A DNA stretch of 53,263 nt from Smithellaceae bacterium. GTDB lineage: Bacteria; Desulfobacterota; Syntrophia; Syntrophales; Smithellaceae. The stretch spans positions 1 to 53,263 of the forward strand of contig JAQUVQ010000014.1 of the NCBI GenBank assembly GCA_028693285.1. Direction: 5' to 3'. Position numbers and translations under genes: made by a program. Positions 26,201-40,169 of this stretch are shown piece after piece (the first letter of the stretch is position 1; every line of letters begins with the position of its first letter). Under the pieces are notes generated by a model. The model was not told the origin of the DNA, did not search any database, and saw nothing but the letters and a program-made list of their open reading frames with translations.

Positions 26201-26229
26201 ATTATAGAGAGGGATGATGAGGTTGTCAA
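26201..26229 (-). promoter_or_regulatory. Consensus sigma-70 promoter of the VKOR operon
   Basis: On the minus strand, TTGACA (26229-26224), a 17-base spacer and TATAAT (26206-26201) match the consensus at all twelve positions. The transcript would start about 25-30 bases before the ATG at 26166. Confidence 0.85.
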
Positions 26230-26390
26230 TAAAATGTTCACGGCTGTTCAGGGGGGGAAGTAACGATACTGAAATCCGGGGATTCAATTGGGTATTGACA
26301 AGGCCCGCTCGCTTCTTCATAGTCATGGCCGGGCGGAAACGCCTTCGTCAAAGACTAAAGAACAGACCTTCACATTCAAAGGAAGACCGG

Positions 26391-28778
26391 ATGGATCAGG
26401 ATTTGGACAATCTCATGGCGCTTCTGCGGAAGGATCACCCCGACCTTTCGGCCTGGATCGTGGTTTGCGCAAACGACAGAGCGGTCGATCCGGTGCGTCT
26501 ACTGATTCATGACCGGCTGGGCGGCATTCTTCCCCGGGTGGAGGGAATCCAGTCCTACCTCAACCGGAAGATCGGCGAAAAAGAGCCATTGCATCCGGTG
26601 CCGGCCGACGAAGAGCTCCTGTACCTGATCCAGTTCATCGCGGAGGAATTTCCCGGTGAAAAGACGCCCGCCCGTCTCGCCGCGAACATGCTGCCCCTGA
26701 TCACCCGGCTTGCGGAATATCAGGTCGGAAAAGAGACGATCGCGGGGTCCGAGCGGTTCACCTCCGAGCAGTGGGATCAGCTTGAGCAATACCTCGAGAC
26801 GGCGAAGGCGTTTCGCCGGTGGCTTTCCCGGAAACATTTGTTTCTGGCGGCGCTCGAAGCCTCCCGGTTTGACGAAATCCTTCCCGGCGACCGGGAGATA
26901 TTCATCGGTCTGCCCGAATTGACGCCGTCCAGGGAGCGGTTTTACAGAAAGATCAGAAACGAAAGACTGTTTATCGATCCGCCGCTGTTCGGGCCCGAAA
27001 CGGCCGCGGGAGGCCCTCTGCCGTTTGATTCCGCGAAAAACCTTGTTTTGTCCTTTGGCAAAACGGTCCGGGCGGCCCAAAACGCGGACATCGAATTTCT
27101 GCGCCTGGCCGGACTTCATGCAGCGGCGGATTGGGTGACGCTGGAGGTTTCCCGCTTTTTGAACGACCGATCGGAATCGGACCGCCTGATGATCTGCCTG
27201 CTGGATGAGTCGCTGACCCCGATGCTGTGGAACCGTTCGCTTCGTTGGTTCGGAAATGCCGTCAACCTTGCCGTCTGGCTGCCGTTTTCCGTAACGTCGG
27301 CCGGAATAAGGCTTTCAGCGGAGATTCACCGGGCCGGGCAAACCGGCCGGATGCCGGATTTCAGGAAATTTGCGGCCGGCCAGGCGGCGGAATTGTTCGC
27401 AAACCGGCAGCGCTACGTTCGCGAGGAAAGTGAGGCGCTGGAAGCCGCCGTATCGATCAGCACGCTGTTGGACGACTGGAAGGGAAGACTGGGGCGGCAT
27501 TTTGCCGCGGCAGCGGGCAAATTTCTCGAGACGAAAAAATTCCGCGTCACGGGCGGCAGGTCCGCCCCGGTGCAGGTGGTCGGATTCGGCCAGGCATCGG
27601 GGGAAAACTTCAGCAGGGGCCTGATACTTCCCGTGGACAGCGGCATCATGCCGGCGCAGCCCTTTGAAGGCCCCTTTATCAATCCGGTGCATGTTCCCTT
27701 CATGCGCAAAAACGTATTTGAATGCCAGGATCTTCTTTTCCGGCAGATTCTGGCGCAGTGCCGAAAGGCCGCCGTCGCGGCGGTGGACGACGCCATCCGC
27801 GAACGAACGCCCGGCTATTACATGAGCCTTCTTTCCGAGGAGTTTGGAAAACCGCCGGTGAAGGTCGCCTTCCGTCGGCCGAAACCGGACCCGCGAGATG
27901 AAATTCGTTGTGCCGTCCCGGTGGACGAGGCTCTGAGAGCCAGGCTCAAAGCGTTCACCTTTTCGTATTCGAGCCTCTCCAAAATTCTGGCCTGCCCCTT
28001 TTTATTCTACCATCAATACATCCTCGGAGTGTCTTCCCCTTCCTTCATGGACGACGATGAAAAAATCAATCTGCAGATGGGGATTTTCGTCCACCGGTTT
28101 CTCCAGCAGCTCTCGACCGTCGGGCACGACAGGCTCGACGACTGGGAGACGTTTTTTGACGAACTGTGGGAAAGCCGCGAAAACACGGAGCTCAGAAATA
28201 CGGAAGGCGTGGAGATCTATCGGCTGAACGCGAAGCTCATTCTGCGGGAAATCGATGAAGACGAACGAGCGTCCGGAAGAAGGGTCCTGTTTGCCGCGAA
28301 CGCGATCTCGTGCGAAGAAAAATTCACCGGCACGCTCGCCGGTCGCTACAGCATCACCGGACGTTCGGACCGGCTGGCCCTGCTTTCCGGGCGCGCCGAG
28401 GTGCTGGATTTCAAATATTCCAAAAAGAAAAGCGGCTTTGCCCTTCCCGCGAGGGAAACCGTTCTGGAACGATTTACGGAAAAAGGAATCCTGCATCCCG
28501 CGGCGCAGTTGATCCTGTACAGTCATTTTATTCCGGACGTAAAAGGCGCCCGCTTTTATTTTCTCAAGGAGACCGCAAAGGACCGCATGATGGAGCTTCC
28601 GAAGGAGGCGCTTGACGAAGCGGGCGACCTGGCGTCCGCCATCGGGGAGAGTCTCGACAGGATCGTGCACGGCGCGGCGCTTGCGCCGGGGGATGATTCC
28701 CGGCAGTGCGAATTCTGCCGGCTTCAGTCTCTGTGCGGGAAAGAAGGCTATTACCGGGCGGCCGGAGGGAGGCGCTGA
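26391..28778 (+). CDS. addB: AddB-like PD-(D/E)XK nuclease subunit
   Basis: The protein has 795 residues, starting at the ATG with AAAGGAAG upstream. The N-terminal two thirds resemble the inactive helicase part of AddB, and no Walker A is present. The C-terminal nuclease domain shows FSYSSLSKILACPFLFYHQY, GIFVHRFLQQL, TGRSDRLALL and the catalytic VLDFKYSKKK. The Cys in LACPF together with CEFCRLQSLC at the end supplies the four cysteines of the AddB iron-sulfur staple. With the next gene it should form a helicase-nuclease that resects double-strand breaks and loads RecA. It is shorter than Bacillus AddB (about 1,160 residues). Its TGA overlaps the ATG of the AddA-like gene. Confidence 0.8.
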   Translation: MDQDLDNLMALLRKDHPDLSAWIVVCANDRAVDPVRLLIHDRLGGILPRVEGIQSYLNRKIGEKEPLHPVPADEELLYLIQFIAEEFPGEKTPARLAANMLPLITRLAEYQVGKETIAGSERFTSEQWDQLEQYLETAKAFRRWLSRKHLFLAALEASRFDEILPGDREIFIGLPELTPSRERFYRKIRNERLFIDPPLFGPETAAGGPLPFDSAKNLVLSFGKTVRAAQNADIEFLRLAGLHAAADWVTLEVSRFLNDRSESDRLMICLLDESLTPMLWNRSLRWFGNAVNLAVWLPFSVTSAGIRLSAEIHRAGQTGRMPDFRKFAAGQAAELFANRQRYVREESEALEAAVSISTLLDDWKGRLGRHFAAAAGKFLETKKFRVTGGRSAPVQVVGFGQASGENFSRGLILPVDSGIMPAQPFEGPFINPVHVPFMRKNVFECQDLLFRQILAQCRKAAVAAVDDAIRERTPGYYMSLLSEEFGKPPVKVAFRRPKPDPRDEIRCAVPVDEALRARLKAFTFSYSSLSKILACPFLFYHQYILGVSSPSFMDDDEKINLQMGIFVHRFLQQLSTVGHDRLDDWETFFDELWESRENTELRNTEGVEIYRLNAKLILREIDEDERASGRRVLFAANAISCEEKFTGTLAGRYSITGRSDRLALLSGRAEVLDFKYSKKKSGFALPARETVLERFTEKGILHPAAQLILYSHFIPDVKGARFYFLKETAKDRMMELPKEALDEAGDLASAIGESLDRIVHGAALAPGDDSRQCEFCRLQSLCGKEGYYRAAGGRR

Positions 28779-31573
28779 TGGAAAACGTTCTGCTGAAAGC
28801 GTCGGCAGGCTCCGGGAAAACCACGCAATTGACCCGGGAGGTATTCGAACGGATCTCCGCGGGAGGGAAATTCATTCTGGCGCTGACCTTTACCCGCGCC
28901 GCCACCGCCGAGATGCGCTCCCGCATCATGGATCAGATCGCGTCAACAAAGGGAATGCCGCTGCTCGACCGGATGAGGCTGATCCTGGAGGCGGGCCGCG
29001 TCGGATACTCGACGATCGACTCGTTTTTCTACCGGCTTTTCGCCGCCCTGGGCGAAGCGCCGAAGATGGCCGACGAAAAAGCGCAGATCGATCTGTCCCG
29101 GGATATCGAAAAGCGTTTTCGCGACGGCATCGCGCGAAGCGGCCGGGAAAAGCGGCTGATCATCGCGTCCCGTATCCTGAACACGGATCTGGATTCGCTC
29201 TGGGGCTCCCTCGGGGAAGAGCAGACGCTGGAGCGCTGCGCGGCGGATATGGAGAGGCTTGACGATCTGGAGGACCTGATGAAAGAGAACGTCCTCCTGC
29301 TTCGGGAGCTGGAGTCTCTGAGCCGCGCGGCAAACGGCCTTGCCGATCTGCCGGACGGACTGAAAACCCGAGTCGTCGCCAACCTGGGGGATTACGACCG
29401 GTTTATGTCCAGGGCGCTTTGCGGCTATTCCGATCTGGAACAGTCGCGGGGGCTCGGCAAAAATATTGCGTGGCATTCGAGCCCGTACTCGGATCTCAAC
29501 GCGATTTTCAAAAACTACCGAAAGACGGCCGAAAAGCTTGCGCTAAACAAGGCCCTCTTGCGGGAACTGGCCCTTGCGTTTCTTTGCGAAATTTATCTCG
29601 ATGCGGCAAAAGCCGTCAAGGAAGAGAAAGGGCTGATTTTTTTTGCCGATGTGCGAAAAGCGCTTCTCGCCCTCGACCCAATCGCGTCGCGCGAAAGGCC
29701 AAAGCTCATGGGCGGCTACTTCTCGCTTGGCCTGGACCGGACGGAGCACCTCCTGGTGGATGAATTCCAGGACACCTCGACTCGCGACATGGCGATTCTC
29801 CTGCCGCTCATCGACGACATTTTATCCGGCCCCGGCGAACGGGGCGAACGGTCGTTTTTTGCCGTGGGCGATTGGAAGCAGATGATCTACGGCTGGCGCG
29901 GCGCGAACCGCGAGGCGCTGGAGACGGCCATCGGCGGCTACCTTCAAAACGGCGTCATCCGGGAGCGGTCGCTTTCCCGCAACTACCGGAGCACGCCGCT
30001 TCTGGTTTCATTTTTCAACCGGCTGGTCGAAAATCTTTTCGAGGGCAGGGAGAAAACGGAGACGCAAAAGCCCCCGGAGAAAAGCGGCGGGCACCGGGAC
30101 GCGCTCCGGTGCGTTTCGGAAGTGAGTCTTGTCGAGCTGGAAAAGGACGGCGCGTCGGAAGCTTCCTGGTATCCGGCCATCGCCGAATATCTTCAGAAAA
30201 AAAAGGAGGAGTACGGCTGTGCATGGGGGGAGATGGCCGTCCTTGCCCTCACCAACAACCACGTTCAGAAAATCGAGGCGGAGCTCGCCTCGCGAGGCAT
30301 TGGCGTCTCCTCGGTCAAAGGCCGCCAGTTGCTGGCAACGGAGGAAGGGGTTGCGGTCATGCTTTTTCTGACGATCGCTCTTTCCCGCGAAGGCGAAACC
30401 GCCTTCGCCGCCGCAGCCGCCCGGTCGCCCCTGTGGAAAGATTGGTTCGAAGACGCGCCGGGAATTCGGGAAGAATTCGCCGCTCAGTTTCCCCGGCCCT
30501 TCGGCCTTTCCGCGGTAAGCCTCGCCGTCGAGCGTTTGCGCGGGAAGCTGTCCGCGACCGTTCTCGATATATGGCAGGATGAGGCGCACGCGTTTTTCAG
30601 CGAAGGCGGCGCGGATGTCGATGAATTTCTCGCCCGAATGTTCAGGGTTCGCTGGAGCGTGAGGGTTCCGGAGGGCGAAAACCGGGATTCGATCAAGGTC
30701 GATACGATTCACGGGACCAAGGGGCTTCAGTTTGCGCATGTTTTCATTTTCTGGAACGAGGATGAGAAATCCACACCGTTCTATCTTCCTTCGCAGAAGT
30801 GTCATGTCCGGTTTTCAGCGGCCGAGACAAAGTGTCTTCAGGCTGGAGAATCGACCCTGGCCGGGGAAATCCTGGAGAAGCGGGACGCCCGCCTGATGCA
30901 ACTGAGGCGCGAGAGAGCCAATGTGTTTTACGTCGCCGCCACGCGGGCCGTTCGAACCCTCGCGGTTTTTCTGCCGGTCAGCAAAAGCGGCGAATACAAG
31001 GCGGTTCATCAGGCCGTTCTGAATACGTTTGCGCAATTTGCGCCGGAAGGGAGCAAATCGGAGATGGTCCGCTTCTCCCGTTTGCCGGAAGAGGCAAAGG
31101 GGTCCGCCGTGTGGGATGCGCCGTCGCGGCACTTTGGCAAACCGGACCCCGCGGGCGAGATCGACCCGGCGCTGATTTCCGAATCCATCCAGGCCGGCAT
31201 CGCGCGGGGCGAGCGGCTGCACCGCTGGCTGGCCAGGGTTCTTGATCCCGGGCGCCTGCCTCCCCCCGGGGAGCTCGGCAGGGAGGAGTATGGCGCGGTT
31301 GTCCGTTTTGTCCGCAGAAAAGAGGTTTTTGAACTCCTGTTCAGGCCGGGCCGTCTCTATGTTGAACAGCCCATATCGGATCAAAAGGATTTCGGCGTCG
31401 TGGACAGAATGATCGTTTCGGATCATGCCGTGACCATTATGGATTACAAGTCGGGCTCCCTGCGAGGGCTGAGGCGGAAGTACGACGAGCAAAGAGAGCG
31501 CTATACCCGCATTATGAAATCTCTTTATCCGCAGCGAAACGTGGAGTATCATGTCCTGCCCATTGATGAATAG
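28778..31573 (+). CDS. addA: AddA-like UvrD-family helicase-nuclease
   Basis: The protein has 931 residues. Superfamily 1 motifs are intact: Walker A KASAGSGKTTQLTRE (residues about 7-21), LALTFTRAATAEMRSRI, Walker B LLVDEFQDTSTRD, GDWKQMIYGWRGA, VDTIHGTKGLQF and FYVAATRAV. A C-terminal PD-(D/E)XK nuclease domain shows GERLHRWLARVL and DRMIVSDHAVTIMDYKSG. This is the motor and second nuclease of an AddAB complex. It is about 300 residues shorter than Bacillus AddA. The start codon overlaps the stop of the AddB-like gene, so the subunits are made in coupled fashion. Confidence 0.85.
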   Translation: MENVLLKASAGSGKTTQLTREVFERISAGGKFILALTFTRAATAEMRSRIMDQIASTKGMPLLDRMRLILEAGRVGYSTIDSFFYRLFAALGEAPKMADEKAQIDLSRDIEKRFRDGIARSGREKRLIIASRILNTDLDSLWGSLGEEQTLERCAADMERLDDLEDLMKENVLLLRELESLSRAANGLADLPDGLKTRVVANLGDYDRFMSRALCGYSDLEQSRGLGKNIAWHSSPYSDLNAIFKNYRKTAEKLALNKALLRELALAFLCEIYLDAAKAVKEEKGLIFFADVRKALLALDPIASRERPKLMGGYFSLGLDRTEHLLVDEFQDTSTRDMAILLPLIDDILSGPGERGERSFFAVGDWKQMIYGWRGANREALETAIGGYLQNGVIRERSLSRNYRSTPLLVSFFNRLVENLFEGREKTETQKPPEKSGGHRDALRCVSEVSLVELEKDGASEASWYPAIAEYLQKKKEEYGCAWGEMAVLALTNNHVQKIEAELASRGIGVSSVKGRQLLATEEGVAVMLFLTIALSREGETAFAAAAARSPLWKDWFEDAPGIREEFAAQFPRPFGLSAVSLAVERLRGKLSATVLDIWQDEAHAFFSEGGADVDEFLARMFRVRWSVRVPEGENRDSIKVDTIHGTKGLQFAHVFIFWNEDEKSTPFYLPSQKCHVRFSAAETKCLQAGESTLAGEILEKRDARLMQLRRERANVFYVAATRAVRTLAVFLPVSKSGEYKAVHQAVLNTFAQFAPEGSKSEMVRFSRLPEEAKGSAVWDAPSRHFGKPDPAGEIDPALISESIQAGIARGERLHRWLARVLDPGRLPPPGELGREEYGAVVRFVRRKEVFELLFRPGRLYVEQPISDQKDFGVVDRMIVSDHAVTIMDYKSGSLRGLRRKYDEQRERYTRIMKSLYPQRNVEYHVLPIDE

Positions 31574-31660
31574 GAAACGCGGCTGGGACTTCTCCAGGCG
31601 CGGAAGCGCCGCGGAGGAAGTCACCCGCATCATTCCGGCCGCAAAGGGGGAGAAAAGATC

Positions 31661-33823
31661 ATGGCTGAAAGGAAACCGTCGCAGATATTTTTGTCCCGGG
31701 GCGGTGTGCTGATTCCGACGTCCGGCGGAAATCTCCAGCTCGGCATTCCGCCGGAGACCATCAAGGACACCATGCGGATCGAGGGCGGCGTGCCCCGCAC
31801 GTTCATCGTGCCCAAAGCGATGTTTGACGTGCAGCACGGCGTAGCACTGGCCGAGATGGAGTTTCCCGTCTATTACAATTTCTTTTTCCGGAAGAGCAAA
31901 ACCAGAATCGTCTGCAGCGAAAAACAGCGCAAAAGGATCGAAACGGTCATAGCCGAGGCCCTGTTCGGACCGGCGGAGGTGGACCCGGTTTTGGAATTTG
32001 CCTGCGGGGAATATACGCCGGGATTTACCGATCTCAAAGCGGAAATGAGCTATTTCAGGAAGTCCATGATCGAGGGACGCTGTGCTGACCTTGGCGACCT
32101 CATCGAATTCTGTGTGCCGGACCGGCGCGGGAAAGCGGCGTTTGGAGAAACGGAGGTGCGGTTCGACCGGCGCGGGAATATCCGCGTTTACGATCGGGGA
32201 AAGAAGATTGCCTCGTTTGGCGGGGACGCTCCCGTGATGGTCCGCAAGACCCCTCTGGCAAGAGTCAGCCTCGGCTTTCAGCCGCCCATATTCGGCGTCA
32301 CGACCCTCGGCGCCGGACACGGCTTCGATCCCGGCGCCGACACATCGGGCCTGATCCTCTGGGTGAACCGTCGCGGGATTATGGTGGACCCGCCCGTCAA
32401 TTCCACCGAAAAACTGGCCGCTCTCGGCGTCAGCCCGAAGCGGATCGACAAAATCATTTTGACGCACTGCCATGCCGATCACGATGCGGGAACTCTTCAG
32501 AAAATATTCCAGGAGGGGAAAATTCACCTGTACACCACACGCACCATTTACGGGAGCTTCATGAAGAAGGCCGCGGCCCTGACCGGCATTGAGGCGGGCC
32601 TGCTCGAACGGCTGGTGGATTTTTATCCCGTCTGCATCGGAAAGCCCGTGATCATCGGCGGGGGAGCCTTTCATTTCCATTACACCCTCCATACGATTCC
32701 GACCATCGCCATTCAGGCGTCTCTGTCCGGAAAAAGCCTGGTGTACAGTTCGGATACGATGAACGATCCGAACTTTATTCAACAGTTGTATGCCGACGGC
32801 GTTTTGACGAAAAACCGCCGTGACTTTCTTCTGAATTTTCCGTGGGACCGGGACCTGGTGTTCCATGAGGCGGGGGTTCCGCCCATTCACACGCCGATGA
32901 GCTATCTGTGCAGTCTGCCGGAAGACGTTCGCAAGCGGATGTATCTGGTCCATGTAAATCCGGATTCCGTTCCCGATGGCTGCGGATTGAGGATCGCTCC
33001 CACGGGGCTCGCGAACACCGTGGATCTGGGCGCTTCTCCGATGCCCCGTGAGGAGGCCGTCGAAATGCTGGAGGCCTTCTCCGGCGTTGAATGGTTCGGC
33101 CAGATGCCGCTCACGAAGGCGAGAGAATTTCTGCTGGCCGCCAGTGTGACGCACCACCGGGCTTCCGACATTATTTTCAGCAAGGGAGATGCGGGGGAGG
33201 CCTTCTGCATTGTCATGAGCGGCGAGATTGATATTGTTTTGGAGGACAGGATCCTCACGACGTATGATGCCGGCGGGTATTTCGGAGAAAAATGCCTGTT
33301 TTCCGATGAAGCCCGGACGGCAACGGCCAGGGCGAAAACGGACGTGAAGCTTCTTTCCATTCGGAAGGAGGAAATGCTGAACCTGATTCGGGGAACCGCC
33401 GCGGAAAGCCTGCTTCGTCAGATTGCCGATTTTCAGAATGTGGAATTGCGCGACGCCGTGAAAGACAACCAGATTCTCGATTCGCTTTCCTCCACGCAAA
33501 AAACCCGGCTTCACGGGCTGATCCGTCCTTTTCCCGGCACCCTGCACACAGGGGACGTTATCGCCTCCAAAGGGTCGGACGCCCGATGCGTCTATATGAT
33601 CCGGGAGGGCCGCGTCGATGTTTACCATCGCCGGTCACGCATCGCGACATTGTCCAGAGGAGACCTGTTCGGCGTGAAAAAAATCTTCCGCCCGAAAGAG
33701 AAAAACTTTTCATTTGTCGCAGGGGAAAAGACCGCTCTGTATTTTATTGAACAAGACGGGCTCAGGCGCTACATGGAAGACAATCCGGGCGTGTACGTCA
33801 AGCTGTACCACAGCCCCTATTGA
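31661..33823 (+). CDS. Metallo-beta-lactamase protein with two C-terminal cyclic-nucleotide-binding domains
   Basis: The protein has 720 residues. Residues 1-200 match nothing I know. A metallo-beta-lactamase domain follows with LTHCHADHDAGT near residue 268, a third-site His in the HTIPTIAIQ region, Asp in VYSSDTMND and His in LVHVNPDSVPDG, so the metal site looks complete. The first cNMP domain (about 480-590) has a good phosphate-binding cassette, GGYFGEKCLFSDEARTATA. The second (about 605-715) is degenerate, with FGVKKIF in place of FGE and no RTA. The fold arrangement suggests a hydrolase regulated by cyclic nucleotide; substrate is unknown. No membrane segment or signal is visible. It is followed after 109 bases by a kinase with the same type of sensor domain. 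Confidence 0.82.
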   Translation: MAERKPSQIFLSRGGVLIPTSGGNLQLGIPPETIKDTMRIEGGVPRTFIVPKAMFDVQHGVALAEMEFPVYYNFFFRKSKTRIVCSEKQRKRIETVIAEALFGPAEVDPVLEFACGEYTPGFTDLKAEMSYFRKSMIEGRCADLGDLIEFCVPDRRGKAAFGETEVRFDRRGNIRVYDRGKKIASFGGDAPVMVRKTPLARVSLGFQPPIFGVTTLGAGHGFDPGADTSGLILWVNRRGIMVDPPVNSTEKLAALGVSPKRIDKIILTHCHADHDAGTLQKIFQEGKIHLYTTRTIYGSFMKKAAALTGIEAGLLERLVDFYPVCIGKPVIIGGGAFHFHYTLHTIPTIAIQASLSGKSLVYSSDTMNDPNFIQQLYADGVLTKNRRDFLLNFPWDRDLVFHEAGVPPIHTPMSYLCSLPEDVRKRMYLVHVNPDSVPDGCGLRIAPTGLANTVDLGASPMPREEAVEMLEAFSGVEWFGQMPLTKAREFLLAASVTHHRASDIIFSKGDAGEAFCIVMSGEIDIVLEDRILTTYDAGGYFGEKCLFSDEARTATARAKTDVKLLSIRKEEMLNLIRGTAAESLLRQIADFQNVELRDAVKDNQILDSLSSTQKTRLHGLIRPFPGTLHTGDVIASKGSDARCVYMIREGRVDVYHRRSRIATLSRGDLFGVKKIFRPKEKNFSFVAGEKTALYFIEQDGLRRYMEDNPGVYVKLYHSPY

Positions 33824-33932
33824 AGCGGCGGGCGGCATCGCGAAAGCAGGCGGGCCGACGGACGGGAAACCGTGGTCCGGCTCCGCCGGAAGACATTGTT
33901 GATGTTTCAGGAATCGAAAGGGGAAAGGCTTC

Positions 33933-35084
33933 ATGCAATCATCGGACATTCAGCGTTTGTTCCACGAGCACGGCCGGAAAGTCGTTCTGCAGGAGGGTGA
34001 CGTGTTGTTTTGCCAGGGAGAGGAGAGCGACGCGGTGTATTTTGTGGCCGGAGGACGTCTGGGAGTCTTCGCGGCGCAGAGCTCGTCGGAAGATGTTCAG
34101 ATCAACACGATCGAAGCCGGAGAGATGGTGGGTGAGCTGGGAGCCATCACCCGTCACCCGCGTACCGCCACGCTGAAAGCCGCCTCGCCGCGGGTGGAGC
34201 TTTTATCCATCGCGACGCCCGATTTCCGGGCGCTCCTGTCCGACAGCCTGTCCCTGGTCGAGGCCATGACCCTGACCAACCGGGAGCATTTGATGGACGC
34301 GGACAGGGCGCGAATTCAATTCGGAACCTCCAACCTTCAAATGCGGAAGCGCGTTGCCAGTCTGGGGCAGGAGAAGGCGCAGCTGCAGGAGCTCCTGCAG
34401 CTGCGCGAAGAGCTGGAAGCCATGGTGGTGCATGATTTGCGAAATCCGCTCAACACCGTCATCATGGCCCTCGGCCTCGTGGAGCGCATGAAGGATGAAG
34501 TGAAAGATCCCGAGACCTTCGCGCTGGCCATGCGCCTGGCGAAGGGAGCCGCGAACCGCATGAACAGGCTGATTGCCACGCTGCTGGACATCGCCCGGCT
34601 GGAGGCCGGGAAACTGGCGCTGAGCATCGCGCAGGTTGATCTGAATACGCTCTTTGAAGAAGTGATTGAAATGGAAAAGGCGGGAGTGACGAAATCCGTT
34701 GAGATTAAGGCGGCTGCGGTTCCGGGGCTGACGGTAAAAGCCGACCGGGAGGTGTTGTGGCGCGTGATGTCCAATCTGCTGGGCAATGCCCTGAAATTCG
34801 CGCCGGAAGCGAGCACCATCGTGGTTGAGGCACAGCGCGGAGATGACCGGAAGATTCTCATCAGCGTGACGGACGCGGGGCCGGGCATTCCGGAAGGTGA
34901 GCGCGAAAGAATCTTTGAAAAGTTTACCAGGGTCAAGAACGCGGACGGCGGAGCTTACAGCGGGACGGGTCTGGGCCTGACCTTTTGCCGAATGGCCGTG
35001 GAAGCCCACGGCGGCTGCATCTGGGTTGAGGAGGGGCCTTCGGGCGTCGGAAGCCGCTTCTGCTTTCAGCTTCCCCAGGATTAA
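33933..35084 (+). CDS. Cyclic-nucleotide-binding sensor histidine kinase
   Basis: The protein has 383 residues and no membrane segments. Residues 1-115 are a cNMP-binding domain with an intact cassette, GEMVGELGAITRHPRTATL. A coiled linker (about 125-160) leads to the HisKA domain with phospho-acceptor H167 in MVVHDLRNPLNT. The HATPase_c domain shows NLLGNALKFAPE, DAGPGIP and GTGLGLTFC. It should autophosphorylate in response to a cytoplasmic cyclic nucleotide and pass phosphate to a response regulator, none of which is encoded nearby. AAAGG precedes the ATG. It converges on the cyclase-FecR-OmpA operon, with 23 bases between the stops. Confidence 0.88.
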   Translation: MQSSDIQRLFHEHGRKVVLQEGDVLFCQGEESDAVYFVAGGRLGVFAAQSSSEDVQINTIEAGEMVGELGAITRHPRTATLKAASPRVELLSIATPDFRALLSDSLSLVEAMTLTNREHLMDADRARIQFGTSNLQMRKRVASLGQEKAQLQELLQLREELEAMVVHDLRNPLNTVIMALGLVERMKDEVKDPETFALAMRLAKGAANRMNRLIATLLDIARLEAGKLALSIAQVDLNTLFEEVIEMEKAGVTKSVEIKAAAVPGLTVKADREVLWRVMSNLLGNALKFAPEASTIVVEAQRGDDRKILISVTDAGPGIPEGERERIFEKFTRVKNADGGAYSGTGLGLTFCRMAVEAHGGCIWVEEGPSGVGSRFCFQLPQD

Positions 35085-35107
35085 TCCGCCTGCCCCGGGC
35101 GGCCGGG

Positions 35108-35704
35108 TTACCGGACGGTGATCTCCACCCTTCGATTTCTGGGCTCCGGCGTGTTGTCCGGCGTGGGAATGAGCAGATTCCTTTCGCCGTGGGACTCGAT
35201 CGTCAGGTCATGCACTTGAATGCCCGCGTCGCGGATGATTTGCGCCACGGTCCTCGCCCGCTGCAGAGAGATCTGTTCATTGTAATCTCTGTTTCCCATG
35301 GTGTCGGTATGGCCGATGACGGATACGTCCGGCGCGGGATATTTCATTGCCGCCTCCACGATGGACGGGATCAGGGCCTTTGAGTCGTTTGTCAGCAGCG
35401 CTCCGCCCGCTTCGAAGTACAGCATGAAACTGACCGGCAGCGGCGGCTGGGCGGCCAGCGCCACGGCGAAGTCTTTCTGAATCTTCTGTTCATCCACCAA
35501 AAAGGGCTTTTCCGATTTGCCGTCCAGCGAGGCGGCGGTTCGGGGCTGGTTCAGAAGCGTTTCCTTTTTTTCACCGCTGACCGCCAGCTTTCCCGTCGTT
35601 CCGTCCTGATTTTCCATCAGAACGACATAAGACTTGGGTGAACAGCCGGCCAGCGCCAGCCACACGGCAAGAAGCACCAGACCTGCCTTTGCAAAAGCCT
35701 TCAT
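35108..35704 (-). CDS. OmpA-family lipoprotein
   Basis: The protein has 198 residues. The signal peptide ends in lipobox LALAGC, so the mature protein is lipid-anchored, probably at the outer membrane. The C-terminal 100 residues are an OmpA peptidoglycan-binding domain: LYFEAGGALLTNDSK, DVSVIGHTDTMGNRDYNEQ, LQRARTVAQII and EPRNRRVEI. It tethers outer membrane to the cell wall. It is the last gene of a three-gene operon with a CHASE2 cyclase and a FecR-domain protein; AGGAGG sits upstream of the ATG, 18 bases after the FecR stop. Confidence 0.88.
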   Translation of the reverse strand: MKAFAKAGLVLLAVWLALAGCSPKSYVVLMENQDGTTGKLAVSGEKKETLLNQPRTAASLDGKSEKPFLVDEQKIQKDFAVALAAQPPLPVSFMLYFEAGGALLTNDSKALIPSIVEAAMKYPAPDVSVIGHTDTMGNRDYNEQISLQRARTVAQIIRDAGIQVHDLTIESHGERNLLIPTPDNTPEPRNRRVEITVR

Positions 35705-35722
35705 GCGATGGTCCTCCTGATG

Positions 35723-36160
35723 TTACGGCTCCACTTTGACCAGAAAGCGGGTTCCTCGGCATCCGATCACGGCGGCCGGCGTCTTCATTTGGACGGCCTC
35801 CGGCTTGAGTTTGGCGATCACGCCCGAAATAACCTGCAGGGTGCCTTTCGTCATGCTGGTGCCGAATTTCAGCCGGTCTTTCCCCGGTTCATAGAGGTAT
35901 TCATCCACCGTCAGCTCCGTGTCCGGCCCGAACGACATTACAGTATTGTCCCTGAAAGTGATGCCCAGAGATCCGTCCGGTCCGGTTTTCAATAGGTTGC
36001 CCATCTGAATCGGCGTGCCGACCCGGGCGCTGACGGCCTTTCCGGCGTCGATCACTTCCGCTTTGCCTGAAGCGGTTTTGACGTAGCCGATGGTGTCCGC
36101 GGCCCAGGCGGGCGTCAGAGTCCAAAACAATGCAATAAAGACTGCCGCAAATCGCTTCAT
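35723..36160 (-). CDS. Periplasmic FecR-domain protein
   Basis: The protein has 145 residues with signal peptide MKRFAAVFIALFWTLTPAWA and AAGGAGG upstream. The mature part is a FecR domain: GYVKTASGKAEVIDAG, ARVGTPIQMGNLLKTGPDGS, LGITFRDNTVMSFGPDTELTV and KTPAAVIGCRGTRFLV. Unlike the anti-sigma factor FecR it has no membrane anchor or N-terminal cytoplasmic part, so it is a free periplasmic domain. Its placement between a CHASE2 cyclase and an OmpA lipoprotein suggests it relays an envelope signal to the extracytoplasmic CHASE2 domain, which is an inference. Confidence 0.87.
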   Translation of the reverse strand: MKRFAAVFIALFWTLTPAWAADTIGYVKTASGKAEVIDAGKAVSARVGTPIQMGNLLKTGPDGSLGITFRDNTVMSFGPDTELTVDEYLYEPGKDRLKFGTSMTKGTLQVISGVIAKLKPEAVQMKTPAAVIGCRGTRFLVKVEP

Positions 36161-36188
36161 GGTATTTCCTCCTTGGCAACAGGTTCGG

Positions 36189-38330
36189 TTACTTTTCTTC
36201 CAGAATGATCGTATCACCCTTTTTCCCCGAGCGCAACCGGTCCCGGTGGAGACGGACCAGTTCGTCGGCCGGTCTTTCCGCGGCCAGCCGCTCGAACGCT
36301 TCAAGGGCGAGCGGCTCCCGCCTTTTGAGGAGTTCAAAGGCCTTCTCGTAAGCCGTGTCCCGTTCCGGCTTTCCGCCGTTTGCCTCTGGCGCCGCGAGGG
36401 GTTCATAGACGCTGATGGGCTGTGTTTTGCCTTTCAGCACCAGGGAGGCTGCGGGCCGGACGACGGCTTCGGGACAGCCTTGAAGCGTCGCTTCCGACAC
36501 GCAGATCAGCGTGCCCAGGTATTTGTTCGCGCCTTCCAGGCGGGAGGCCGTATTGACGGCGTCTCCCAGCGCCCGGTAGTCAAACAGGGTTTTGCCGCCG
36601 AAATTTCCAACAATGACCTCGCCTGAGTGGACGCCGATGCGGGTCTGTCCCAACTCGATGCCTTTTGCCCGGCAGTCCGCCGCGTAGCCGAAGGCAAAGG
36701 CATGCATTTCCAGTGCGCACGACAGGGCCCGGGCGCGGTGGTCCGGCTGCGCGACCGGCGCCGAAAACATGATCGCGACGGAATCTCCCACGATCCGGTC
36801 CAGTGTCCCGCCCCGGCCAAAGGCGATGGTCACCATCGCGTCCAGATAGGCGTTGAGAACCGAAACCGCGTCCGCGGGGTCCATCTTTTCCATCAGGCCT
36901 GTAAACCCGGCAAGGTCGGTGAAAACAAAACTGCATTCCTGCCGCCGCCCTCCCAGCTCGAGCTGGTCGGGGTGGCGGACAAGATAATCGACGCGGTTGG
37001 GGGAAATGTAGCGCGAAAAAGCCTCGCGCACCCACCGGTGGCGTCTTTCGCTGGTCCGGTGGTGGATGATGCTGCCCAGAATGAACGCGGCCAGCAGCGC
37101 CAGACCCGGCGTTACGGGGTCCAGAAGCAGGTGGTATCGGACAAAAGCAATCCACGCGCCCCATCCGGCGGCGAAAAGAATCGCGGCGGTGATGCAGGCC
37201 GAGACGAGCGCGGGAGCCGAAAGCGCAATGATTCCGACTGCGAGCCCTCCGGCCAGAATGGTCAGGCCCTCGATGGCCGCCGCCCAGGAAGGCCTTGAAA
37301 TATACGTTTTTGTCAAAATCTGTTCCAGGGCCTGGGCGTGCGCTTCCACGCCGGGCATCACCGTTCCCATCGGACTGAACCGGATGTCCATGAGCCCCTG
37401 CGCCGAGGCGCCGACCAGGACGATGTGGCCGTCGAGCTTTTCCCGCGGCGCCTCTTCCGTCAGCACTTTCCAGGCCGGAATGCGCCTCTCCGGCACGGGT
37501 TTTGTGTAGTGCACCCAGATTTCTCCCCGGGGGGTGGTGGGCGCCGTGATGGAGCCGATCCGGATTTCCTGAATCCCGGCGCCCTTTTCCGGAAGGGTTT
37601 TGACGATGTAATTGCGCGCGCGCTGGGCCACCCTGAGGGATTCGGCGGCAAGGGAGGCGACGGCCTGCCCCTGAATCTGTATGGCCAGGGGCACCCGGCG
37701 GACAACGCCGTCCGAATCCGGGATGAAGTTCATGGCGCCGTTTCCCGCCGCCGCTTTTTCCAGAAGAGGAATCGAAGTCACCGCGCCGGAAAAGGAATGA
37801 AGGTGGGGCAGGGGAGATTCTCCGGAAAAAACGAAGCGAAAGGGGAGCTTCGGCAAACGCCTTGTGACGGGGTTGTTTTCGGCGGCAAAGCCGAGAACAA
37901 CTTGCCCTTCGGCCAGCGTTTCGGCCAGAATCTCATCGTGGCCGGGCATGCTTTCCAGGCGGCGGCGGATATCCGCGGGCAGTTCCCAGTCGGTGGTGAC
38001 CCGCTCCGGCGATGTTCGATCCGGCTCGGCAAACATGATATCCAGGGCCACGACGCTTGCGCCTGAATCCCGCAGCTTATCAACCAGTCCGGCCATTCTT
38101 GTGCGTGGCCAGGGCCACTGGCCGATTTTTTGAAGGCTTTCCTCGTCGATGTCGATGATGCGCACGGGGGCGCTTTGATAAGGACGGGGGCTCCAGCGCT
38201 GGTACTGATCGAAAACAGCGTTGCGCAGCACCTGCAGCGGCAGCGGTTCCGCGAGGAAAACGGCCAGGCCCAGAAAAACGGCGAAAAAGGGAGCCAGCAG
38301 GCCGGGGGACAATTTGGGGAAAAACGTCAT
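36189..38330 (-). CDS. CHASE2-domain class III nucleotide cyclase
   Basis: The protein has 713 residues. One N-terminal membrane segment precedes a periplasmic CHASE2 domain (about 40-330: VRIIDIDEESLQKIGQWPWP, VVALDIMFAEPDRTSPE, GVVRRVPLAI). Three membrane segments (about 340-415) follow, then a cytoplasmic cyclase domain. Metal-binding aspartates are in FVFTDLAGFTGL (about 470) and IVGDSVAIMF, and the transition-state Asn/Arg in GDAVNTASRLE. The usual base-selecting Lys of the DKxxGD motif is Arg (LDRIVGD), and the second selector position reads Arg in FDYRALGD. It should make a cyclic nucleotide in response to an envelope signal; whether cAMP or another product is open. First gene of the cyclase-fecR-ompA operon. 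Confidence 0.88.
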   Translation of the reverse strand: MTFFPKLSPGLLAPFFAVFLGLAVFLAEPLPLQVLRNAVFDQYQRWSPRPYQSAPVRIIDIDEESLQKIGQWPWPRTRMAGLVDKLRDSGASVVALDIMFAEPDRTSPERVTTDWELPADIRRRLESMPGHDEILAETLAEGQVVLGFAAENNPVTRRLPKLPFRFVFSGESPLPHLHSFSGAVTSIPLLEKAAAGNGAMNFIPDSDGVVRRVPLAIQIQGQAVASLAAESLRVAQRARNYIVKTLPEKGAGIQEIRIGSITAPTTPRGEIWVHYTKPVPERRIPAWKVLTEEAPREKLDGHIVLVGASAQGLMDIRFSPMGTVMPGVEAHAQALEQILTKTYISRPSWAAAIEGLTILAGGLAVGIIALSAPALVSACITAAILFAAGWGAWIAFVRYHLLLDPVTPGLALLAAFILGSIIHHRTSERRHRWVREAFSRYISPNRVDYLVRHPDQLELGGRRQECSFVFTDLAGFTGLMEKMDPADAVSVLNAYLDAMVTIAFGRGGTLDRIVGDSVAIMFSAPVAQPDHRARALSCALEMHAFAFGYAADCRAKGIELGQTRIGVHSGEVIVGNFGGKTLFDYRALGDAVNTASRLEGANKYLGTLICVSEATLQGCPEAVVRPAASLVLKGKTQPISVYEPLAAPEANGGKPERDTAYEKAFELLKRREPLALEAFERLAAERPADELVRLHRDRLRSGKKGDTIILEEK

Positions 38331-38416
38331 GATTTCACCGTCCGGTTGAAAAAAGGATACGACAGGCGGCGGGATATGTCAATCCCTGCATTGGCAGGCC
38401 GGTTTGTCGATAAATC

Positions 38417-38434: not shown

Positions 38435-38533
38435 TCCATTAGCCTCCAAATTTGTTTTTGAGGATCGCGGCAGGTGTGCGGATCGGTTTTTCCAGGCCGC
38501 CGCCGCGTTGCCTTTTTAAAAGGGGGGAAGATC

Positions 38534-38944
38534 ATGATCGGTGTGCTTATCACAACCCACGGGAATCTGGGCAATGAGCTGATTCACGCGGCGGAATCCA
38601 TCAAAGGTCCGCTCAAAGACGTGATGCATGTCTGCATTGAACAGACGAAGGGCCTGGAAGACATGAAGAAAGAAATCCAGAACGCCCTCAAGAAACTGGA
38701 TCGCGGCAAGGGTGTTCTGATTCTGACCGATCTTTTCGGAGGCACGCCTTCGAATATTTCTCTGTCTTTTATGAAAGAGGGCAAGGTGGAGGTGGTGACG
38801 GGCGTCAATCTGCCCATGCTGCTGAAACTGTCCGACGTCAAAGAAGAAACCACGCTCAAGGAGTTTGCCGGCTTCATCAAGGATTACGGCAAAAAAAACA
38901 TCTCTCTGGCCAGTGAAATTTTGAGCAAAAAAGCAATCGGGTGA
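38534..38944 (+). CDS. PTS mannose-family IIA component
   Basis: The protein has 136 residues, starting after AGGGGGGAAG. It begins MIGVLITTHGNLGNELIHAA, with H9 the expected phosphorylation site, and contains LILTDLFGGTPSNIS, which is diagnostic of EIIA-Man. It accepts phosphate from HPr in the cytoplasm. Genes for IIB and IIC follow immediately. In many deltaproteobacteria such sets act in regulation rather than sugar uptake; that is suggested here by the absence of IID. Confidence 0.92.
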   Translation: MIGVLITTHGNLGNELIHAAESIKGPLKDVMHVCIEQTKGLEDMKKEIQNALKKLDRGKGVLILTDLFGGTPSNISLSFMKEGKVEVVTGVNLPMLLKLSDVKEETTLKEFAGFIKDYGKKNISLASEILSKKAIG

Positions 38945-38948
38945 TCCC

Positions 38949-39461
38949 TTGGCGGAATCGTACGACATCGCGCTGGTGCGGGTGGACAACAGGCTGGTTC
39001 ACGGTCAGATTCTGGAAGCCTGGGTGCCGTTTGTCGAAGCCAGGTGCATCATGGTGGTGGACGACAATTCCGCCAGCGATTTCTTCTGCGAGACGGTGAT
39101 CCGCATGGCCGTCCCCAGCGACATTGAGGTCAATATCTGCTCCGTGGATGATTTTGCCGCCAATTACGCGTATGTCCGGGGAAGCGGCAAAAAGACCATC
39201 GTCCTGTTTGGCAGGATTGCCGATGCCTTGAAGGCCTACGAGCAGGGATTTCATTTTGAAGCGCTCAACATCGGCAATATCTATCACGAAGATTACAAAG
39301 TCTGCTGCGCGCCGTCCGTGTTTCTGTGCGAGCCGGAAATTGCGGACATTATCAGGTTGCAGCGGGAAAAGGGCGTGGCCGTCGAGGTGAAAAGGGTTCC
39401 CCGGGAGAAGGCCGTGGATATACAGGACGCCCTCAAAGCGTCCTGCGATTCGAAACCGTAG
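38949..39461 (+). CDS. PTS mannose/sorbose-family IIB component
   Basis: The protein has 170 residues. The start appears to be TTG, 4 bases after the IIA stop. DIALVRVDNRLVHGQILEAW carries the phospho-acceptor H18, and ALNIGNIYHEDYK matches the family. It would receive phosphate from IIA and hand it to a sugar or keep it as a signal. Tight spacing on both sides shows co-translation with IIA and IIC. Confidence 0.9.
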   Translation: MAESYDIALVRVDNRLVHGQILEAWVPFVEARCIMVVDDNSASDFFCETVIRMAVPSDIEVNICSVDDFAANYAYVRGSGKKTIVLFGRIADALKAYEQGFHFEALNIGNIYHEDYKVCCAPSVFLCEPEIADIIRLQREKGVAVEVKRVPREKAVDIQDALKASCDSKP

Positions 39462-39473
39462 CGGGGGGATCGC

Positions 39474-40169
39474 GTGCTGACACAAATCGTCATCCTGTCC
39501 CTGGTCGGAGGGCTGCTGTGCCTGGACCGGATCTTCCTTCAGGCCATGCTGTCGCGGCCGATCATCATCGCTCCGGTCATGGGGCTTCTTCTCGGCGATG
39601 CCTACACCGGCCTCATCATCGGAGCGATTTTCGAGCTGTTCTGGATGGACCGCGCCCCCATCGGCATTTACATTCCCCCCAACGACTCCATTGCCTCCGC
39701 GTTCGCCGCCGCCCTGGCGATTCTGGCCGGCCAGTCCCTGGGCGCCGTCACGAAAGAACTGACGGCTCTCTCGGTTCTGCTGGCTGTTCCTTTCGGTATT
39801 CTGGCAAAAAAAATGGATGTCCGAATGATGGCCGCAAACGACCTTCTTTCCGACCGGGCGCTGGAAGCGGCCCGTTCACGGGATCTTCGCGCGATAGAAA
39901 ACATGACCTGCCTCGCGCTGGGCCGCGCGTTTGTTCTTTATGCCGGCCTGCTGTTTATTCTCCAGGTGATTTTCATTCCCCTCGTGATTAATTTGTACCC
40001 GAAGCTTCCGGTGCAGGCAGGCGGCGCGCTGACCCTTACCTACTATTTTCTGCCGGTTCTCGGGACCGCCGTTGCGCTCAGCACCATCAAGCTGCGCGGA
40101 GCGGTTCCCGTTTTTTGCGCGATCTTCCTGGCGGCCGTCCTGGCCATGGACTATTTTCATGTCTTCTGA
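39474..40169 (+). CDS. PTS mannose/sorbose-family IIC membrane component
   Basis: The protein has 231 residues starting at GTG after GGGGGGAT. It has about six or seven membrane segments; APVMGLLLGDAYTGLIIGAI followed by FELFWMDRAPIGIYIPPNDS is the EII-Sor signature. Normally IIC works with IID as the sugar channel, but the next gene is rimI, not IID. Either IID lies elsewhere, or IIC here works alone or as a sensor. The last 11 bases overlap the rimI start. Confidence 0.87.
   Translation: MLTQIVILSLVGGLLCLDRIFLQAMLSRPIIIAPVMGLLLGDAYTGLIIGAIFELFWMDRAPIGIYIPPNDSIASAFAAALAILAGQSLGAVTKELTALSVLLAVPFGILAKKMDVRMMAANDLLSDRALEAARSRDLRAIENMTCLALGRAFVLYAGLLFILQVIFIPLVINLYPKLPVQAGGALTLTYYFLPVLGTAVALSTIKLRGAVPVFCAIFLAAVLAMDYFHVF

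Follow-up and report, generated by a model that had tools for sequence, protein, structure and literature searches.

A putative five-gene cassette for making, reading and erasing a cyclic-nucleotide messenger in a Smithellaceae genome

Five adjacent genes of a Smithellaceae bacterium encode a CHASE2 nucleotide cyclase, a FecR-domain protein, an OmpA-domain lipoprotein, a histidine kinase with a cyclic-nucleotide-binding (cNMP) domain, and an MBL protein with two such domains. Judged from their sequences, it is rather probable that these genes constitute a complete portable cassette, which would contain the maker, the reader and the eraser of one cyclic-nucleotide messenger. They are located in the window, that is, the whole stretch of DNA analysed (53,263 nucleotides), which is one contig of a 2.68-Mb assembly. 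If this reading is right, a compact set of five genes would encode the means to make one second messenger, to read it and to destroy it by feedback, and one of the five would specify a bacterial equivalent of the cNMP-stimulated phosphodiesterases known from Dictyostelium. It would also connect cNMP with two-component signalling and, among relatives, with HD_5 (HD-GYP-like) proteins. In addition, the unusual base pocket of the cyclase raises a testable question, namely, which cyclic nucleotide these CHASE2 cyclases make.

Genes and layout of the locus

The features of the locus are listed in Table 1. Analyses of open reading frames and Pfam domains confirmed the five genes, all of them intact, with their domains, their convergent arrangement and the gap of 23 bases as described in the earlier note; the likely start of the FecR gene was refined to 36160 (MKRFAAVF), which gives a product with a signal peptide, as the 227-aa open reading frame starts too early. 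The cyclase, FecR and OmpA genes on the minus strand, with intergenic gaps of 28 and 18 bases, look like an operon. On the plus strand, the MBL and kinase genes are separated by 109 bases, and therefore their co-transcription is not certain. Four matches to the sigma70-like consensus were found in the region, where 2.0 were expected, and terminator-like sites were no more frequent than in shuffled sequences. A search for RNA elements returned only a tRNA.

Table 1. Features of the five-gene locus (positions in the window) and loci of GAF-HD_5 proteins
Feature	Position	Strand	Basis
MBL-cNMP-cNMP protein, 720 aa, probable cNMP-regulated class II phosphodiesterase	31661..33823	+	ORFs, Pfam, alignments
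Soluble cNMP-HisKA-HATPase_c histidine kinase, 383 aa, probable messenger reader	33933..35084	+	ORFs, Pfam, alignment
Gap between convergent stops, 23 bases	35085..35107	.	ORFs
OmpA-domain lipoprotein, 198 aa, lipobox LALAGC, probable peptidoglycan-anchored partner	35108..35704	-	Pfam
FecR-domain periplasmic protein, 145 aa, signal peptide	35723..36160	-	Pfam
CHASE2 + class III nucleotide cyclase, 713 aa	36189..38330	-	ORFs, Pfam
Sigma70-like promoter match, TTGACA-17-TATCCT, 10/12, just upstream of cyclase start	38354..38382	-	consensus only
GAF-HD_5 locus L132 (G000 contig C88)	246-3266		
GAF-HD_5 locus L092	4019-7033		
GAF-HD_5 locus L037	11630-13747		
GAF-HD_5 locus L112	71-3136		

The locus is flanked by genes of other kinds. 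Mannose/sorbose-family PTS genes (EIIA, EIIB and EIIC; 38474-40169) are divergent from the cyclase operon, a flank that only the closest relatives share. The MBL gene is preceded by a PDDEXK nuclease gene and, after it, a UvrD-type helicase gene (26214-31573), which together resemble an AddAB-like pair. A 937-aa open reading frame on the minus strand (30815-33628), antisense to the helicase and MBL genes, is probably a composition effect and not a gene.

Domains and predicted roles of the products

In the MBL protein, Pfam identified Lactamase_B and two cNMP_binding stretches (E 2e-31), and the MBL domain, cNB1 and cNB2 occupy about residues 205-440, 495-580 and 610-700, respectively. The MBL fold with the HxHxDH motif and the remaining di-metal ligands, as expected of a class II cNMP phosphodiesterase, is found, and the ligands H269, H271, D273, H274, H344, D365 and H431 are invariant in 12-13 relatives. 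When a profile of the MBL domain with 12 relatives was compared with solved structures, the top match was Apyc1 (E 6e-14, nearly full length), followed by 7t28, 1zkp and 6kns, the last of which we take to be B. subtilis YhfI; all of them were ahead of the RNases, and RNase-type structures matched with E 4e-8 and weaker. Apyc1 and B. subtilis YhfI, the nearest solved-structure relatives of the domain, are class II cNMP phosphodiesterases (PMC9117128) that share the HxHxDH motif but stand alone, without cNMP domains. The MBL protein does not reach the cut-off of the Apyc1 family (PF23023), with 19-23 bits vs. 50. AlphaFold2, run with an alignment of three sequences, gave a mean pLDDT of 30 for the MBL protein, and this model was set aside.

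The MBL domain is followed by two cNMP domains, and this is the arrangement of GbpA and GbpB of Dictyostelium, which are class IIb phosphodiesterases whose hydrolysis is activated by cNMP binding; the proteins are likened here by domain layout alone, and they differ in that GbpA and GbpB are eukaryotic and that the second cNMP domain is degenerate at this locus (PMC11988041). While cNB1 keeps the phosphate-binding cassette (FGE...RTAT), the canonical Glu and Arg of the cassette are absent from cNB2 in 7/7 orthologs. In distant MBL-cNMP-cNMP relatives in G377 and G154 (genomes are denoted by G numbers), the second cNMP domain has the full motif instead. Since the MBL domain is closest to Apyc1, the metal ligands are invariant and the architecture is that of GbpA/GbpB, the MBL protein is most likely a messenger-activated signal eraser, that is, a cNMP-regulated class II phosphodiesterase, and not the output effector that the earlier note had taken it for. 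Of the three cNMP domains counted in the same note, probably only two, cNB1 and the intact domain of the kinase, bind ligand in the usual way.

Distant MBL-cNMP-cNMP proteins (25% identity) were also observed directly before large PAS/GAF hybrid histidine kinases in the loci L058:1-5408 and L059:178-8216. In L059, genes for a response regulator and for a fusion of HisKA, receiver and cyclase domains come next.

For the cyclase, both CHASE2 (E 1e-62) and Guanylate_cyc (E 2e-15) were identified by Pfam. The CHASE2 sensor domain scores 212 bits vs. a Pfam cut-off of 26.3, and the residues of a class III cyclase are conserved, including the metal-binding Asp residues D472 and D516 and the transition-state residues N593 and R597. 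In characterised class III cyclases, Lys with Asp or Thr is associated with ATP, and Glu with GTP (PMC4215837). Here, the base-selecting positions are R512 and R586 in 12/12 aligned relatives, two of which are at 48% identity, so that neither the adenylate cyclase signature (Lys with Asp/Thr) nor the guanylate cyclase signature (Glu at the first position) is present. Other CHASE2 cyclases in Syntrophales have Lys/Thr at these positions. In a set of six CHASE2 cyclases from alphaproteobacteria, Lys is paired with Ser or Thr in five, and the sixth carries Gly and Thr. For the cytidylate cyclase EaPycC, an Arg has been reported at the first of the two positions (R142, which precedes the metal Asp D146 by four residues), in addition to F100 and Q144; the Arg is in common with R512, but the cyclase at this locus is without the Gln (PMC11224242). 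Owing to R512 and R586, the product of the cyclase is uncertain: the sequence suggests that it may be other than cAMP, and the Arg pocket may yet bind adenine. We regard it as unlikely, though worth stating, that the Arg/Arg pocket defines a CHASE2 subfamily making a non-cAMP, non-cGMP messenger (e.g., a cyclic pyrimidine) with a dedicated kinase and phosphodiesterase, in which case a non-canonical cyclic mononucleotide would serve ordinary envelope signalling outside phage defence.

The kinase contains cNMP_binding, HisKA and HATPase_c domains according to Pfam. Its cNMP domain is intact (GE..., R[T/S]AT), and HisKA and HATPase_c with intact boxes identify a two-component sensor kinase. No response regulator gene is adjacent to it in this genome. 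In G123 and G126, a gene with two receiver domains and HD_5 adjoins the cyclase gene. A GAF-HD_5 protein is encoded after OmpA in G126, G023 and G003, with a Cache domain added in G023, and its ortholog is located beside the kinase in G053 and on contig C88 in the window's own genome (71%). The presence of these HD_5/HD-GYP proteins hints at a possible connection with c-di-GMP turnover. The GAF-HD_5 (HD-GYP-like) protein, which has a Cache domain in several cases, co-occurs with the cyclase ortholog in 5/9 genomes, and is also present in G027 and, as a weaker one, in G067.

Distribution and linkage of the genes

Orthologs were surveyed in 149 Syntrophales genomes. The MBL protein has an ortholog in six of them, and the other four genes adjoin the MBL gene in 6/6. 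The flanks in G133 and G125 are as in the window, with the UvrD-type helicase on one side and the PTS genes on the other; the same basic layout recurs in G126 and G123, where the surroundings differ. All five genes are also present in G020, which belongs to another family, in changed order and orientation; consequently, the arrangement that the earlier note had read as two convergent operons, though found here, is not essential. Outside the order, G373 has the cyclase-FecR-OmpA genes convergent with the MBL gene, without the kinase ortholog. The adjacency, which might have been peculiar to this genome, thus extends to five genes in six genomes and four in G373, and because the clustering recurs in other genomes, it is not due to chance.

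The cyclase ortholog occurs in nine of the 149 genomes with 65-89% identity, and the next match drops to 46%. The kinase ortholog was found in eight genomes, all of which are among the nine with the cyclase ortholog, although in G053 and G023 it lies on a different contig from the cyclase. The cyclase-FecR-OmpA triad occurs without the MBL gene in G053, G023 and G003. The uncorrected hypergeometric probabilities (kinase, 2e-12; MBL protein, 6e-9) overstate the association, as the genomes are related. Nevertheless, the rearranged and unlinked instances argue for a functional coupling of the five genes. In another class, five homologs of the predicted MBL phosphodiesterase, with about 45% identity, stand alone, and therefore it is a separable module.

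A search of genome contigs returned two near relatives, which are the loci of two whole-genome matches, and no relatives of the MBL protein were found on plasmids. Among named records that contain this locus, the nearest are Smithella and Smithellaceae MAGs. Between G126 and G373, RecA is 70% identical (RecA identities were obtained by tblastn) and the cyclase 80%. Within the genus of G126, RecA is 94-99% identical to that of G126, and the cyclases outside the G126/G123 pair are 68-72% identical. In the cyclase tree, for which only a midpoint root is available, G053 of the same genus branches apart, and G373 falls among the others. Horizontal movement of the putative cassette is evident from these comparisons.

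Proposed circuit, alternatives and known systems

In the proposed circuit, an envelope cue would be received by the periplasmic CHASE2 domain with the FecR protein and the peptidoglycan-anchored OmpA lipoprotein, and would make the membrane-bound class III cyclase more or less active. The 3',5'-cNMP product would bind the cNMP domain of the kinase and change its autophosphorylation, and a response regulator whose gene lies elsewhere would then receive the phosphoryl group. Binding of the cyclase product to cNB1 of the MBL protein would, in turn, switch on the di-metal phosphodiesterase domain, which would hydrolyse the messenger and end the signal, i.e., a negative feedback. The likely output would be the control of another nucleotide signal, probably c-di-GMP, because the receiver-HD_5 and GAF-HD_5 genes join the cluster in some relatives. 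The circuit sketched from the first inspection of the DNA is largely upheld, in that the kinase tracks the cyclase ortholog even when unlinked, except that the MBL protein is now assigned the task of ending the signal. Counting against it are the lack of a neighbouring response regulator, G373 without the kinase, the separable parts, the degenerate cNB2 and the uncertain product. Moreover, the FecR protein SMc02177 and the TPR protein SMb20495 of S. meliloti are targets and are not required for signal perception (PMC5498481).

Some of the same observations could be accommodated by other readings. The MBL protein may be an output effector after all, a hydrolase of RNA or of a metabolite that is switched on through its cNMP domains, since MBL enzymes are diverse, RNase-type structures match its profile too and its Apyc1 score is under the Pfam cut-off. 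However, its best, full-length structural relatives are cNMP phosphodiesterases, characterised proteins of the same architecture are cNMP-stimulated phosphodiesterases (PMC11988041), and no RNase-type extra domain was found by Pfam, which makes an effector unlikely. It is also quite improbable that the triad, the phosphodiesterase and the kinase share a mobile segment while serving separate pathways that draw on a general cNMP pool. The parts are separable in other genomes, horizontal spread is evident, and the genomes carry other CHASE2 cyclases and cNMP proteins, as would fit such a loose association; yet the kinase ortholog is confined to genomes with the cyclase ortholog even if the two are not linked, the G020 cluster is rearranged but kept, and clustering of phosphodiesterase and cyclase has been described independently in another phylum (PMC9239204).

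An anti-phage system of the Pycsar kind, whose defence effector would be set off by a cyclic nucleotide, would be in keeping with the patchy, mobile distribution and with the Arg at the R512 position, which also occurs in EaPycC (PMC11224242). The PADLOC profiles PycC and PycTIR match the cyclase and cNMP domains as well, but these matches are at the superfamily level. Against it, no toxic effector is encoded (neither TIR nor a membrane effector), the sensor domain of the cyclase is periplasmic, a histidine kinase acts as the reader, and no defence genes were recognised among the neighbours scanned, so that we consider this reading highly improbable. The PADLOC and Apyc1 matches had raised the question of membership in Pycsar, which takes a pyrimidine cyclase and an adjacent toxic cNMP-gated effector; it was rejected, the PADLOC matches being only in shared domains.

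The cassette reading may be compared with several known systems. In Campylobacterota, clusters of CHASE2 adenylate cyclase, phosphodiesterase, FecR and TPR genes have spread horizontally (PMC9239204). Such clusters resemble this locus in the CHASE2 cyclase, the FecR protein and the phosphodiesterase, which is there said to hydrolyse cAMP and here has a predicted activity, but they have a TPR protein where an OmpA lipoprotein and no TPR protein is found here, and no cNMP-sensing histidine kinase is mentioned for them (PMC9239204). The earlier note knew of no described pairing of CHASE2 sets with these two partners, but the combination of CHASE2 cyclase, phosphodiesterase and FecR is already known. 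No paper describing the set of MBL-cNMP-cNMP protein, cNMP-sensing kinase, OmpA lipoprotein and Arg/Arg pocket was found among the open-access papers searched, and these four are what the locus adds to the known CHASE2 clusters.

CHASE2 cyclases of S. meliloti receive their input from a protein of the outer membrane (PMC13001267). The CyaD1/CyaD2/CyaK-NsrA-Clr system has in common with this locus the CHASE2 cyclases, the input from an envelope protein and a cNMP-binding reader, but its reader is a CRP-family transcription factor and its envelope partner is a beta-barrel (PMC13001267, PMC5498481). In the BiofilmReg operon of Burkholderia, a CHASE2 sensor protein is likewise co-encoded with a FecR-domain protein; the operon differs in that the CHASE2 domain belongs to a histidine kinase, neither a cyclase nor a phosphodiesterase is present, and LysM-FecR replaces the separate FecR and OmpA proteins (PMC5192318).

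The CHASE2-FecR pairing is found beside cyclases on alphaproteobacterial plasmids too. For example, on the Ensifer sp. PDNC004 plasmid NZ_CP070354.1 (L139:4779-8833), a CHASE2 cyclase gene is overlapped by a different MBL hydrolase gene, and the FecR and TPR genes are divergent, which is the same kind of kit built from other parts. This MBL gene was rejected as a member of the MBL-cNMP-cNMP family (pairwise E 0.08). On pAMI5 of Paracoccus aminophilus (L140:197-8097), there are TPR, FecR and CHASE2 cyclase genes, with a gene for a cNMP-binding patatin-like phospholipase close by.
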